From a virus: a stretch of DNA of 38,902 nt. Shown in pieces: positions 19,439-37,698 of the stretch (position 1 is the first letter of the stretch; every line of letters begins with the position of its first letter). Location of the stretch: IMG/VR virus record IMGVR_UViG_3300048597_000286, positions 1 through 38,902 of that record. One strand, given 5' to 3'. Position numbers and translations under genes: made by a program. The notes below the pieces were generated by a model that was not told where the DNA came from, ran no database searches, and worked only from the letters and a program-made list of their open reading frames with translations.

Positions 19439-21025
19439 TCACGCCTCGGGATCGCCGGGCACGGCGGCCGGGTCCGTCTCGCCCAGGAGGCGCGCCTGGA
19501 AGACCGCGCGCGCGAGCCGTTCGTTCAGCGCCGCGACGTCCAGTTGAGGCGCGAGCCGCAGGAGCCGCCCCACGAAGTCATCATAGTCCTCGGCGGCGGC
19601 GGCCTCCGCCTCGATTTGGGCGAGAGGCGCCCCGGTCAGGGTCTCCCAGTCCGACAGCATCTCAAGGACCGCTTCCCCGATCGGGTCGGGTGCCTCGCCC
19701 TCCGAAAACGCTGCTGGCACTGCACCCGGTCCATCCGGGGGGCGATTAAGGGCATTTAAGGGCCCTAAGGGGCGGGGGTTCGGGTCTCCGGGCGTCGTTG
19801 TACCCTCCATCCCTCTCCGCGCGTCCTGACCCGGTTCCAGCGCGAGGGGCATTTTGCGCCGCCAATGGGGCCCGTAGGTCTCCCTCACATAGGCCTCATC
19901 GGGCTCGAAGCCGAGCCCCATGATCTTGCCGTCCCGCTCGGCCGACGCCCCCAGATCCTCGGGCTCGGCGAAGTCGCGATAGACGCGGGGGATGGCGGCG
20001 CCCGGGAAGTTCCATTCGGTCAGCCAGCGCGCCGGCCCCGCATTGAAACTCTCGCACAAGAGATCGGCGTCCGCCTTGGCGACCTCCTGGCGCACGTCGA
20101 AATGCACCTGGCCCTGCGCGCGGCTTGCGCCGTCGTCGGTCGTCATCGTGACCGACAGCACGATCTTCGCGATCTCGGCGTCGAGCGTCTCGTGGAACGC
20201 CTTGTGGTCGGAGGTGTTGCGCGCGGTCTCAAGCAGCGTCGCGTCCATGCCCTCGGGCATGACGATGGCCGCGCCCTCCTGGAGCATCCGCAGCGCCTGC
20301 AGGAGCTTGTTCTGGTCGCCTTCGCCAGTCGCGCGCGGATATGTGCCCTTTGCGGTCGGCGCCCCGAACCGTTCGAGGAACTTCGCCCAGAAGCGCAGTC
20401 CCCCGCGCTTGAAGAAGACAGGCCAGTAGAGCCAGTAGGCAAGGCCCCGCCCATAGGGCTCGTCGTCATGCTCGGCCCCGGCCGAGAAGACCCAGAACTT
20501 GGCCGGCGGCAGCGCCTCGCCATAAGGCGCGGCCCGCGTCCTCAGGAGCAGCGCGCCGTCCGCGCCGAACCCGAACCGGCGCTGCCGGCGGACGCGGAAC
20601 TCGCCGATCCGCCAAAGCCCGTCGGCGCCGGTCTCCCACATCAGCTCCGCGACCGCATAGCCGTAGAACACGCCGTAGAGCATCTTGACCGTGGCCTGGT
20701 CGAACCGGGCGCGCTTCAGCTGCGCCTCCAGATGCTCGGCCGCCGCCACGTCGATCGGTGCCGTGCCGCCCGGCTCGACCTTGAACTCCCGCGACGTGAC
20801 CGCCAGCTGGCGCTGCTGCAGCGTCGCCTTCACCTGGCCGTCGCGCAGCACCTCCTCGTAGAGGCGCAAATCCTGCCCGCGCGCGGCGAGCAGCGGATCC
20901 TCAGGGATCAGCGCGCCCAGGGCCGCGACGAACGGCTTGGTGATATCGAGGAACGGCGTCGATGCCGCGGCCTCCAGCCGGGACGGCGCCTGCGCCGCGC
21001 TCTTGGGCTTCTTCGTGGCCATCAA
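19439..21025 (-). CDS. Portal protein (Mu gp29-like, DUF935)
   Basis: The 528-residue protein has the DUF935 pattern: LYEEVLRDGQVKATLQQR near residues 56-73, YGYAVAELMWE around 123-133 and the FLERFGAPTAKGTYP motif. It forms the dodecameric portal at the head vertex through which DNA is packaged. It lies between the terminase and the F-like gene in Mu order. Its C-terminal part holds a Pro/Gly-rich linker (about 415-440) encoded by an unusually AT-containing stretch at 19741-19770, close to the physical centre of the prophage. Confidence 0.92.
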   Translation of the reverse strand: MMATKKPKSAAQAPSRLEAAASTPFLDITKPFVAALGALIPEDPLLAARGQDLRLYEEVLRDGQVKATLQQRQLAVTSREFKVEPGGTAPIDVAAAEHLEAQLKRARFDQATVKMLYGVFYGYAVAELMWETGADGLWRIGEFRVRRQRRFGFGADGALLLRTRAAPYGEALPPAKFWVFSAGAEHDDEPYGRGLAYWLYWPVFFKRGGLRFWAKFLERFGAPTAKGTYPRATGEGDQNKLLQALRMLQEGAAIVMPEGMDATLLETARNTSDHKAFHETLDAEIAKIVLSVTMTTDDGASRAQGQVHFDVRQEVAKADADLLCESFNAGPARWLTEWNFPGAAIPRVYRDFAEPEDLGASAERDGKIMGLGFEPDEAYVRETYGPHWRRKMPLALEPGQDARRGMEGTTTPGDPNPRPLGPLNALNRPPDGPGAVPAAFSEGEAPDPIGEAVLEMLSDWETLTGAPLAQIEAEAAAAEDYDDFVGRLLRLAPQLDVAALNERLARAVFQARLLGETDPAAVPGDPEA

Positions 21026-21037
21026 GTGCCCTCCATC

Positions 21038-22528
21038 TCAATAACTCTCCAGGCCAGGCGCGAGCGCGGGCAGGATCGCTCCGAACCCGGCATCGGTCGT
21101 GACCCGCTCAGGCGCGCCAAAGGCCGAGCCGAGGTCCTGCCGCTCGATCGCCCTGAAGTCAGGGGTGACGCCGCCTTGCGCCGCCACGGCCGCCATCAGC
21201 GCCGCCGCCCAGAACCGGTCGGCGTGCGCGTCCGAGCTGCCATCCTCGGCAAGGCGCGGCGCACCCGAAGGCCCGGCCACGCGCTTCACGCTCCTGAGGT
21301 CGGCGCGGATCGCGGCGTCTTTCGGGATCCGGATCAGCCCGCGCTCGAACCGGTCCTTCAGCGCGGTCGCGATGTCGAGCTTCCGGGGGCCGGTGAACAG
21401 CACGCCCTCGACCGTCGCGCCCCAGCGCGCCTGCAGATCCTCGACAACCTTCTCGCCCATGCCCGTCTGGTCGACGCCGGCGCGCACCACGCGATAGGCC
21501 CGCATGAGGCGCTCGAACTCTGCGTCCTGCTCGGCGAAAGAGGCTCCGCGCAGCTCGACACGCTCGCGCACCCAGAGAGTTTCGCCGACGAGCTCCGCGG
21601 CCCAGATGACCGAGAGGTCGCGGCGGCGCGCGACGTCGCGGCCCAGATAGACCGGCCCGCCAGCGTAGAGATCCGGACGGCCTGCCTCGTCGTGCTCGGC
21701 CGCCGCCACCTGTTCGGGCGTCAGCCACGAGCCGCCGCCGGGGCGCGGCACGCAGTCGAGCTCTTCCTCGGCTGCCTCGCCATAGGTCGCGCGGATCTCC
21801 GCTTCCCAGGCGGCGCGGCCCTCCGGCGTGGCGGCGCGGCCCGCGACCAGGCAGATGCGCTCGTAGAGCCCGTCGGCAAGCGCGTCGCCGAGCGTGATCC
21901 GCAGCGTCTCCCCCTTGCGCCGCCCTGCCTTGATCTCGTCGATCAGCTGGTTGAACGGGTTCGCGGCGCCGTCATGGGTCGACACGACCGCGACCGACCC
22001 GCCCCACATGAGGAGCGCGAGCGCCGCCTTCAGGACTTCGGCCAGGTCCTTGTGGAACGCGGCCTCGTCGATGATCACATCGCCCTGGCGGCCGCGCAGC
22101 GCGCGCGGAACCGACGGCAGCGCCGTGACCGAGAAGCCGCTGGCGAAGACGATGCGGAACGCCTTGATGTCGCCGTCCTCGTCGGCCAGCACGATTTCCT
22201 CGGCGGCGTTCGCGGCGATCTGGAACGCCTTCGCCCACATGCCCACGGTCGCGATGAACTCGCGCGCCATCTCGGCGTCGTAGCCCATGTAGTAGGTGTT
22301 CCGTCCTCCGGCGCCGCGCGACCGCGCGGCCCGAAGCGCCGCCCGCGCCGCCAGCGCCCAGGTCAGGCCGATGCGGCGGCTCTTCTCGATGACGGCGAGC
22401 GCCGTCGTATTGCAGAGATCGATCGCCAGGCGCTGATAGCCCAGCAGCAGGGACGCCGGCGCGAGACGCGCCAGCACCGGCGCCGCTTCGGCTTGCGGCG
22501 TCAGAACGGGTGCGGCGGCTTCGGTCAC
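21038..22528 (-). CDS. Terminase large subunit (Mu gp28-like)
   Basis: The 496-residue protein is the ATP-driven DNA packaging motor and nuclease. It shows the deviant Walker A EKSRRIGLT at residues 48-56, Walker B VIIDEAAF at 151-158, and the start of the RNase H-like nuclease domain at YLGRDVARRRDLSVIWAAEL with an acidic residue on its first strand. Mu-type phages package by headful from host-flanked copies. The start overlaps the upstream small gene by 4 bp. Confidence 0.92.
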   Translation of the reverse strand: MTEAAAPVLTPQAEAAPVLARLAPASLLLGYQRLAIDLCNTTALAVIEKSRRIGLTWALAARAALRAARSRGAGGRNTYYMGYDAEMAREFIATVGMWAKAFQIAANAAEEIVLADEDGDIKAFRIVFASGFSVTALPSVPRALRGRQGDVIIDEAAFHKDLAEVLKAALALLMWGGSVAVVSTHDGAANPFNQLIDEIKAGRRKGETLRITLGDALADGLYERICLVAGRAATPEGRAAWEAEIRATYGEAAEEELDCVPRPGGGSWLTPEQVAAAEHDEAGRPDLYAGGPVYLGRDVARRRDLSVIWAAELVGETLWVRERVELRGASFAEQDAEFERLMRAYRVVRAGVDQTGMGEKVVEDLQARWGATVEGVLFTGPRKLDIATALKDRFERGLIRIPKDAAIRADLRSVKRVAGPSGAPRLAEDGSSDAHADRFWAAALMAAVAAQGGVTPDFRAIERQDLGSAFGAPERVTTDAGFGAILPALAPGLESY

Positions 22529-22764
22529 GGCAAGGCCGCTCGGACCGCGCAGTCCTTCGCTTCGAGCAGCTTGCGCAGCGCCATGGTGCGCTCGGCGCTG
22601 CTCGGCAGCGAGTCCATCACGTGCCGGGCCGTCTGGGCAAATGGCTGCGAGACCGCGCGCAGGGGTTCAGGCAGATGCGCGGTGTGGAAGAAGCGCAGCA
22701 ATGGATTGGCGGAGATCTCGCCCGGCGTGAATTCGACGGGCGCGGGGTGCAGGGCTTCGCTCAC
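22525..22764 (-). CDS. Acb2/Tad1-like small protein (candidate anti-CBASS/Thoeris sponge)
   Basis: The 79-residue helical protein has the pattern NPLLRFFHTAHLPEPLRAVS, then VMDSLPSSAERTMALRKL and LEAKDCAVRA. As I recall the family, this two-helix hairpin, with a Pro-x-x-Leu start and an ALxKLxEAxxxAVRA-type second helix, belongs with small phage proteins classed as Acb2/Tad1 domain. Characterised members sequester the cyclic nucleotide messengers of CBASS or Thoeris defence. It starts with GTG, preceded by GAGGAG, and is coupled to terminase (ATGA). Mu has no equivalent at this place. It could instead be a structural adaptor; binding residues cannot be verified here. Confidence 0.55.
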   Translation of the reverse strand: MSEALHPAPVEFTPGEISANPLLRFFHTAHLPEPLRAVSQPFAQTARHVMDSLPSSAERTMALRKLLEAKDCAVRAALP

Positions 22765-22774
22765 GACTATCTCC

Positions 22775-23317
22775 TCAGGATTTCAGACCGAGAACGGCCC
22801 GCTCGATCTCGGCCGCCGTCTCGGCCGACAGGCCCTTCGCGACCATGGCCGCGCGCGCCGCGCCCGCAGCCTTCTTCGTCGCGTCGAGCCGCTCGGCCGC
22901 GATCTGACGGTCCACGTCGACCTTGCGCGCCGACTGCAGCTCGCGAGCCGACTTGGCGAGCCAGTTGAGGTCCTTCGGCGTCAGCGCCTCGTCGGGTTCG
23001 TCCTCGGCCGCCGCCTTCATCGCGACCCGGAACAGGATCGACTGCAGCATCTGCGCGATCAGCTCGACCTGTTCGCCGGAGGCCGCCTCGCGCAGCGGCG
23101 CGACCAGGCTCTTCGCCGCCTCTTGAACCGCGCGCAGCTTGCCGCCCACCTCGTCGACGCGCTGCTTGTAACGGCCCAGAGCCGAGCGCGAGATCTCCGC
23201 GCCCAGCGGGCGGATCGCGTCGAGGATGTCGTCGAGCGGCACCTTCAGGGCGAGTTTCTCGTCGATCAGCGCCTTGAGGCGCGGATCGAGGGTGTCGATC
23301 GAGGACGCGCGCGTCAT
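22775..23317 (-). CDS. Mu gp27-like protein (DUF3486, terminase small subunit position)
   Basis: The 180-residue protein fits DUF3486: MTRASSIDTLDPRLKALIDE at the N-terminus, then ISRSALGRYKQRVDEVG, a helix-turn-helix-like segment at about residues 20-60, and a long helical tail. Its place before the large terminase suggests a small-terminase or DNA recognition role. The ATG at 23317 lies 2 nt after the preceding stop; longer frames upstream are Arg-rich shadows. Confidence 0.85.
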   Translation of the reverse strand: MTRASSIDTLDPRLKALIDEKLALKVPLDDILDAIRPLGAEISRSALGRYKQRVDEVGGKLRAVQEAAKSLVAPLREAASGEQVELIAQMLQSILFRVAMKAAAEDEPDEALTPKDLNWLAKSARELQSARKVDVDRQIAAERLDATKKAAGAARAAMVAKGLSAETAAEIERAVLGLKS

Positions 23318-36870: not shown

Positions 36871-37698
36871 ATGCCGGTCTCGCAGAAGGTCAGAACCCGA
36901 ATTATCGCCGAGTTGAAGCCGTTCATTCATGTCGTTGAGGAAGCACGCAAGCGTGATGTGAGCGAAAGCGACACAGTCGTCATCATCGGCGACATGATCG
37001 CGGCGATTATGGGCTATCGCAAATATACAGAAATAACGACTGAGTTCGCGATCAGGGGAACGTTTGTCGATCTGGCGGTTAAGATCGAAAGCGACGTGCG
37101 ATTTTTGGTCGAGGCCAAGGCCGTAAATGTCGACCTGAAGGAAAGCCACATCAAACAGGCGGTCGACTACGGTGCAAACCAAGGGATCGAGTGGGTCGTT
37201 CTCACGAATGCCGCACGATGGATGGTCTTCCGGATCGGTTTCGGGCAGCCGATCTCAGCCACATTGGTGCTGGACATCGACATCGTCGCAGTAGGCCATC
37301 GCAATGAAGAGGCGATCACGCTTTTCGGCAATTTGAGCCGGGAGGAGTTTACCAAGTCCGGGATGCAGCAGGTCTTCATGAACCGGCAGGCAACCAGCCC
37401 ATACGCCCTCGCGGCACTGTTGATGGCGCCGGATCAGCTTTCCTACCTTCGGCGCGAGCTGCGCCGTCTCAACCCGGGCCTGCGCATCGAGGACGATGAA
37501 ATCGCACGGGTCCTCAAGCAGGATGTACTCAAGCGCGAGCTCGTCGACAGCGAGGATGCAACCAAGGCCGCGACCGCCTTGCGCAAGCTGCAGCAGTCGG
37601 CCGAGCGGCGAAAGGCGGCAGCCGCGAAAAGCAAGGACGCGGCGGCGGCTTCGTCCGACGGGGCGGAGTCCGAAACCCTGACCGAAGCGGGTAACTGA
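36871..37698 (+). CDS. Type I restriction R-subunit N-terminal-like protein (PD-(D/E)XK)
   Basis: The 275-residue protein resembles the N-terminal nuclease domain of HsdR-type enzymes: SESDTVVIIGDMIAAIMGY, then GTFVDLAVKIESDVRFLVEA followed by KAV, giving catalytic Asp67, Glu81 and Lys83, and IKQAVDYGANQGIEWVVLTN. No helicase domain follows; instead there is a helical C-terminal half and a low-complexity Ala/Lys tail. A strong AAAGGAGG site precedes the ATG, 12 bp after the repressor stop, so it is probably expressed in the lysogen. A role in defence against other phages is plausible but not shown. Confidence 0.78.
   Translation: MPVSQKVRTRIIAELKPFIHVVEEARKRDVSESDTVVIIGDMIAAIMGYRKYTEITTEFAIRGTFVDLAVKIESDVRFLVEAKAVNVDLKESHIKQAVDYGANQGIEWVVLTNAARWMVFRIGFGQPISATLVLDIDIVAVGHRNEEAITLFGNLSREEFTKSGMQQVFMNRQATSPYALAALLMAPDQLSYLRRELRRLNPGLRIEDDEIARVLKQDVLKRELVDSEDATKAATALRKLQQSAERRKAAAAKSKDAAAASSDGAESETLTEAGN

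Follow-up and report, generated by a model that had tools for sequence, protein, structure and literature searches.

The window analysed here comprises the 38,902 nt of an IMG/VR virus record (IMGVR_UViG_3300048597_000286, positions 1-38,902) and carries Mu-type genes encoding a Mu transposase, MuB, gp27, terminase and Portal_Mu. Between gp27 and the large terminase gene (terL) lies an open reading frame of 79 codons that, as the ORF list and direct reading agree, has a GTG start and its own TGA stop (Table 1). Its Shine-Dalgarno box is overlapped by the TGA stop codon of gp27 (22775-22777), and its own TGA shares a 4-nt overlap (GTGA) with the GTG start of the terminase gene; these overlaps along gp27, the small gene and terL are typical of translational coupling within an operon. 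This is a real protein-coding gene, and the original prediction of a 79-residue helical hairpin encoded between gp27 and terminase is borne out by the reading frame, the Shine-Dalgarno box, purifying selection, homologues and an AlphaFold2 model.

Table 1. Features of the hairpin gene locus in the window (minus strand) and of the equivalent slot in related Mu-like phages.
Feature	Positions	Strand	Basis
79-aa divergent Acb2/Tad1-hairpin-like protein (probable homology), phrog_1761 / phrog_5120 family	22525..22764	-	ORF, PHROG matches, AF2 model, homologues
Shine-Dalgarno AGGAG, 6 nt upstream of GTG start	22771..22775	-	direct reading
Mu gp27-like protein, upstream neighbour	22775..23317	-	PF11985 Phage_Mu_Gp27 1.2e-27
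Large terminase (Terminase_6), downstream neighbour	21038..22528	-	PF17289/PF03237
Mu-type portal, next gene of operon	19439..21025	-	PF06074 Portal_Mu 4e-104
Unrelated slot protein	L257:2793-3218
Unrelated slot protein	L259:3055-3477
Unrelated slot protein	L260:3142-3525
Unrelated slot protein	L262:2676-3059
Unrelated slot protein	L265:3085-3489
Unrelated slot protein	L276:3106-3486

Elsewhere in the window, a two-gene module at the phage end (650-2677, minus strand) begins with a gene for a DUF5131 protein (1e-100); the second gene encodes 414 aa, and its product has a weak GMT-like winged-helix match and matches neither PHROG nor PDB entries. Near the right end (36871-37698, plus strand), there is a gene for a protein of 275 aa that contains a domain resembling the N-terminal part of type I restriction HsdR (7.5e-6) and belongs to phrog_17239 (3e-74), of unknown function.

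Comparison of the window with its closest relative, the near-identical contig L001, yields for the hairpin gene a dN of 0.085 (13.5 nonsynonymous changes over 167 sites) and a dN/dS of about 0.24, and hence the product is a protein under purifying selection. The corresponding dN and dN/dS values are 0.013 and 0.04 for terL, and 0.021 and 0.07 for gp27; the hairpin protein is constrained and evolves faster than these two neighbours, but not faster than the other accessory genes upstream. The protein belongs to PHROG 1761 (2.4e-23) and PHROG 5120 (1.2e-19), both annotated as 'unknown function', a branch present in hundreds of phages, whose hosts include Actinobacteria and Proteobacteria among others. 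Homologues were detected by tblastn in 327 of the 50,697 phage records, including phages of Vibrio, Erwinia, Acinetobacter, Brevibacterium, Gordonia, Ruegeria and others, and a further scan found the family in 424 IMG/VR stretches and at 32 loci in GTDB genomes. Among the 110 unique family sequences, F26, E58, R64, E68, K70, V74 and R75 are invariant, and H30, K65, L66, L67 and D71 are almost invariant, with conservation concentrated in one helix, the second long one; the most conserved stretch of the family is ALRKLLEAKDCAVRA, the motif quoted in the original prediction, for which a literature search returned no paper. At residue 28 (about 22681-22683), the window protein has Thr where 100 of the 110 relatives, L001 (Tyr) included, have an aromatic residue; Thr recurs at this position in L015, L023 and L309, and the Thr28 allele of the window may represent a specificity change.

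Some members of the family are fusions in which the hairpin is joined to an N-terminal extension, namely, a Cys-rich zinc-knuckle-like segment in an Ochrobactrum phage (L311:765-1133), a phrog_872 domain in Vibrio 1.185.O (L312:3791-4198) and a P-loop-like segment in Erwinia jumbo phages (L314:2755-3207). The 'Anti-TRAP' label attached to the Ochrobactrum homologue belongs to the separate N-terminal Cys domain, not to the hairpin. PHROG 1761, of which the window protein is a member along with PHROG 5120, includes longer proteins with an N-terminal domain, such as a 150-aa Erwinia protein; the window protein carries no more than a short tail of the HPAPVEFT type.

The genomic placement of the gene is variable. 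The order gp26, gp27, hairpin gene, terL is the same in L001 as in the window, and the slot between gp27 and terL is also occupied by the hairpin gene in Photobacterium (L279, L282), Enterovibrio (L295) and the isolated Vibrio phage martha 12B12, as well as in a Sphingomonadales MAG (L278), where other small genes lie alongside; in a Vibrio contig (L296), the gene follows gp27 at the contig end. In three further relatives (L010, L011, L013), it is found instead near the portal/gpF genes, and in seven Mu-like relatives (L252, L255, L261, L263, L266, L269, L273) gp27 directly abuts terL and the hairpin gene is missing. In non-Mu phages, it is located by lysis genes (AGM16 and a Bradyrhizobium phage), after the RNA polymerase gene (phiV141), among replication genes (Vibrio 1.185.O) or within a run of small unnamed genes (phage Evaa). 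The gene is neither required nor constant at the gp27-terL junction, being dispensable in Mu-like phages and found outside the packaging region elsewhere: it is movable accessory cargo rather than a part of the packaging machinery. In six other Mu-like relatives, the same slot holds an unrelated protein of 126-141 aa with the pattern ISDHxxPxxTGxExPHFDLVSxDG (Table 1); the three representatives searched (L259, L265, L276) produced no significant Pfam match and no PHROG match. The gp27-terL slot may serve to accommodate counter-defence genes as cargo.

Acb2 and Tad1 sequester cyclic oligonucleotides or gcADPR and so block CBASS or Thoeris; Acb2 is a homohexamer that has three sites for dinucleotides and two for trinucleotides. 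The relationship of the window protein to this superfamily, put forward in the original prediction, holds as remote homology, and it becomes apparent at the level of the family. Single-sequence searches with the window protein gave no match in Pfam (E<=1), NCBIfam or PDB, PADLOC found nothing in 27 members of the family, and no member reached in hmmscan the curated PF24729 cut-off of 27 bits, the best relatives scoring 17.5, 16.4 and 14.1 bits. The family profile likewise retrieved only chance-level top matches from the PDB, with Acb2 homolog 43 (9ptq) at an E of 1.3. The HMM comparison proposed earlier thus gives no Pfam match for the window protein itself, yet relatives do match the Acb2/Tad1 profile among the PHROGs. 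The canonical Acb2/Tad1 PHROG is phrog_1454, which is matched by true PF24729 members, all above the cut-off; the window protein reaches phrog_1454 and phrog_15810 only marginally, at 0.05-0.07, and its relatives from Brevibacterium phage AGM16, Vibrio phage martha 12B12 and Erwinia phage pEa_SNUABM_17 match phrog_1454 significantly, at 3.9e-6, 3.7e-5 and 4.7e-4, respectively. Reciprocally, true PF24729 members match phrog_1761 at 0.006-0.008. In profile-profile comparison, the family is linked to Acb2/Tad1 with 82-83% probability and an E of about 1e-5, rising to 90% and 1.7e-6 when intermediates are added. The profile score of 29.5 compares with a maximum of 22.3 among 500 shuffles (300 by column, 200 heptad-preserving) and with 7.7 for the reversed profile, and is the highest among 16 natural protein clusters from the same loci, the next reaching 19.5. 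An Occludin_ELL match in 7 of the 27 members (0.0014) was rejected as a chance helical match, one that illustrates the noise of single weak Pfam matches.

The AlphaFold2 model of the single chain, built with 27 family sequences, has a pLDDT of 92 and a pTM of 0.78. The predicted helices span residues 14-19, 21-26, 33-52 and 57-76, with residues 1-13 uncertain, so that a short N-terminal helical segment (14-26) precedes two long antiparallel helices packed back to back. The published Acb2 protomer consists of a short N-terminal helix and two long antiparallel helices (PMC10419184; PMC12043709), and the window protein is confidently predicted to adopt this layout. A Foldseek search of predicted viral structures (BFVD) recovered the protein's own family first, followed by named matches that are mostly 'Acb2/Tad1 hairpin domain-containing', at a best probability of 0.99. 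Searches of the PDB with Foldseek and VIA-align listed unrelated helical bundles (Z up to 5.9) and no Acb2/Tad1; the control was also weak, the model of a true PF24729 member recovering T4 Vs.4 at rank 13 only (E 6.2), which makes the missing Acb2 uninformative. A hairpin-like fold is thus what the modelling predicts, and the proposal of an Acb2/Tad1 hairpin, which was to be abandoned if an HMM match were lacking and the fold were unlike a hairpin, survives this comparison.

Within this shared layout, the putative pocket differs. Compared with Acb2 (T4 Vs.4, Acb2 of Pseudomonas phage PaMx33/PaP2; PF24729), the window family shares the predicted protomer layout, the pattern P-x-x-x-E-K/R-x-x-A-L-x-K-L-x-E-A in the second long helix and the status of a small phage accessory gene, but scores below the Pfam cut-off, has an H-L-P turn and fewer residues between the N-terminal helix and the hairpin. 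The canonical motif is E-K-x-x-A-x-T-K-L-E-E-A-M-F-W-A-N-A-A; in the joint alignment, its A-x-T-K-L-E-E-A-M-F-W-A-N-A-A part corresponds to A-L-R-K-L-L-E-A-K-D-C-A-V-R-A in the family, such that M-F-W-A-N-A-A is replaced by K-D-C-A-V-R-A and the position of T4 Acb2 T68 is taken by the invariant Arg64. The T68M substitution lowers the ligand affinity of T4 Acb2, and its Y8A mutant does not bind (PMC12657230). Y8, T68 and F82 are cyclic-dinucleotide pocket residues of T4 Acb2. For Y8 the alignment is ambiguous, offering both position 28 and the conserved His30 as equivalents, and the alignment of the T4 F82 region with the family is not confident. The motif on which the original prediction leaned is therefore not the canonical Acb2/Tad1 motif but the mark of a separate phrog_1761/phrog_5120 branch in which pocket residues are replaced. 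With Tad1 (Thoeris anti-defence 1), the family has in common the hairpin domain that Tad1 shares with Acb2, the canonical profile finding Tad1 chains at 2e-4; however, the N-terminal beta domain of Tad1 (PMC12043709) is not present in the 79-aa protein, and there is no direct sequence match. The family is a divergent sister branch of the Acb2/Tad1 superfamily, neither canonical Acb2 nor a member of PF24729; given the sub-cut-off scores and the replaced pocket residues, we describe it as a branch with a changed pocket and assign it no ligand. As judged from the alignment, the altered pocket suggests a ligand other than that of T4 Acb2.

How much of the Acb2/Tad1 resemblance could come down to two amphipathic helices, through convergence or composition? 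The single-sequence searches without a match and the unrelated bundles from the PDB fold search are compatible with such an origin, but the real score exceeds those of composition- and heptad-preserving shuffles, the relatives have HMM matches at 4e-6 to 4e-5, and the PDB fold search carries no weight when a true member finds Vs.4 at rank 13 with an E of 6. We therefore regard convergence as very improbable and homology of the family to the Acb2/Tad1 hairpin domain as highly probable. Homology, in turn, would be preserved if the fold had been kept for a protein-protein inhibitor or regulator whose target is a conserved protein of the host or phage, or else nucleic acid, instead of a nucleotide. 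Such a role would fit the frequent use of small helical hairpins as protein-binding modules, the near-invariance of the charged motif RKLLEAKDCAVR across hosts and the fusions that join the hairpin to different N-terminal domains, zinc-knuckle-like and P-loop-like ones among them. Nevertheless, sequence profiles and the viral fold search both place the family closest to Acb2/Tad1, in which the characterised proteins are nucleotide binders (PMC12043709), and we consider a protein-binding function clearly improbable.

A virion-associated or morphogenesis protein (a scaffold, a terminase accessory or an ejected protein) that binds no host signal is unlikely too, albeit the main rival of a signalling sponge. 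Its main asset is gp28 of the Roseovarius N4-like phage RPP1 (FR682616 orf28, labelled 'structural protein' in the record), which belongs to the same family (phrog_1761, 1.1e-33); mass spectrometry of virions purified on CsCl detected 13 proteins, gp28 among them (PMC4193335 Table 4). The naming of FR682616 (L317) is inconsistent: RLP1 in the paper and Roseovarius Plymouth podovirus 1 (RPP1) in the record taxonomy. The exact gp27-terL placement in several independent Mu-like phages, the coupling to terL and the near-invariant second helix point in the same direction. Against this, RPP1 gp28 is divergent, its motif having changed to RKLWEAKNLAVYAAV, is encoded among middle genes and was detected in RPP1 only; presence in the particle is also compatible with a sponge delivered with the DNA. 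Moreover, at least seven related Mu-like phages, with gp27 adjoining terL, lack the gene, which is therefore not needed for packaging, and in other phages its neighbours include genes for a holin or an RNA polymerase as well as replication and early genes.

Returning to the signalling sponge, the homology, the charged conserved helix and the accessory behaviour of the gene together lead to the notion that the hairpin protein sequesters a nucleotide-derived host signal, a proposition that we favour over its rivals, at about even odds. Under this scenario, a divergent gene of the Acb2/Tad1 superfamily, carried as movable cargo, would be read late with the head and packaging genes via translational coupling; its product would form an oligomer of helical hairpins, the conserved basic/acidic face of which (R64, K65, E68, K70, D71, R75) would bind a small nucleotide-derived signal, withholding it from CBASS, Thoeris or some other abortive-infection system of the host, such that the cell would not kill itself before phage assembly. 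That the second helix is so extremely conserved in phages of very different hosts counts against a sponge, as a fast arms race would not predict it, and the detection of RPP1 gp28 in purified virions is contrary evidence as well. A SMODS domain is present in 6 of the 21 host genomes, a count that has no matched baseline; no CBASS enrichment could be shown from it, and it is given no weight here. A bolder extension, in which a large unannotated branch of Acb2/Tad1 sequesters another signal via an R64/K70/D71/R75 pocket and, in some phages, is virion-borne and delivered with the DNA, is a speculative prospect to which we give a low probability.

Should the protein turn out to be a virion component instead, phage particles would be a second setting in which the Acb2/Tad1 fold is used. 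If, on the other hand, this branch consists of sponges, the fixed, altered pocket would point to a signal molecule outside the range of Acb2 or Tad1, and a widespread 'hypothetical' small phage protein would become a ready set of anti-defence candidates.
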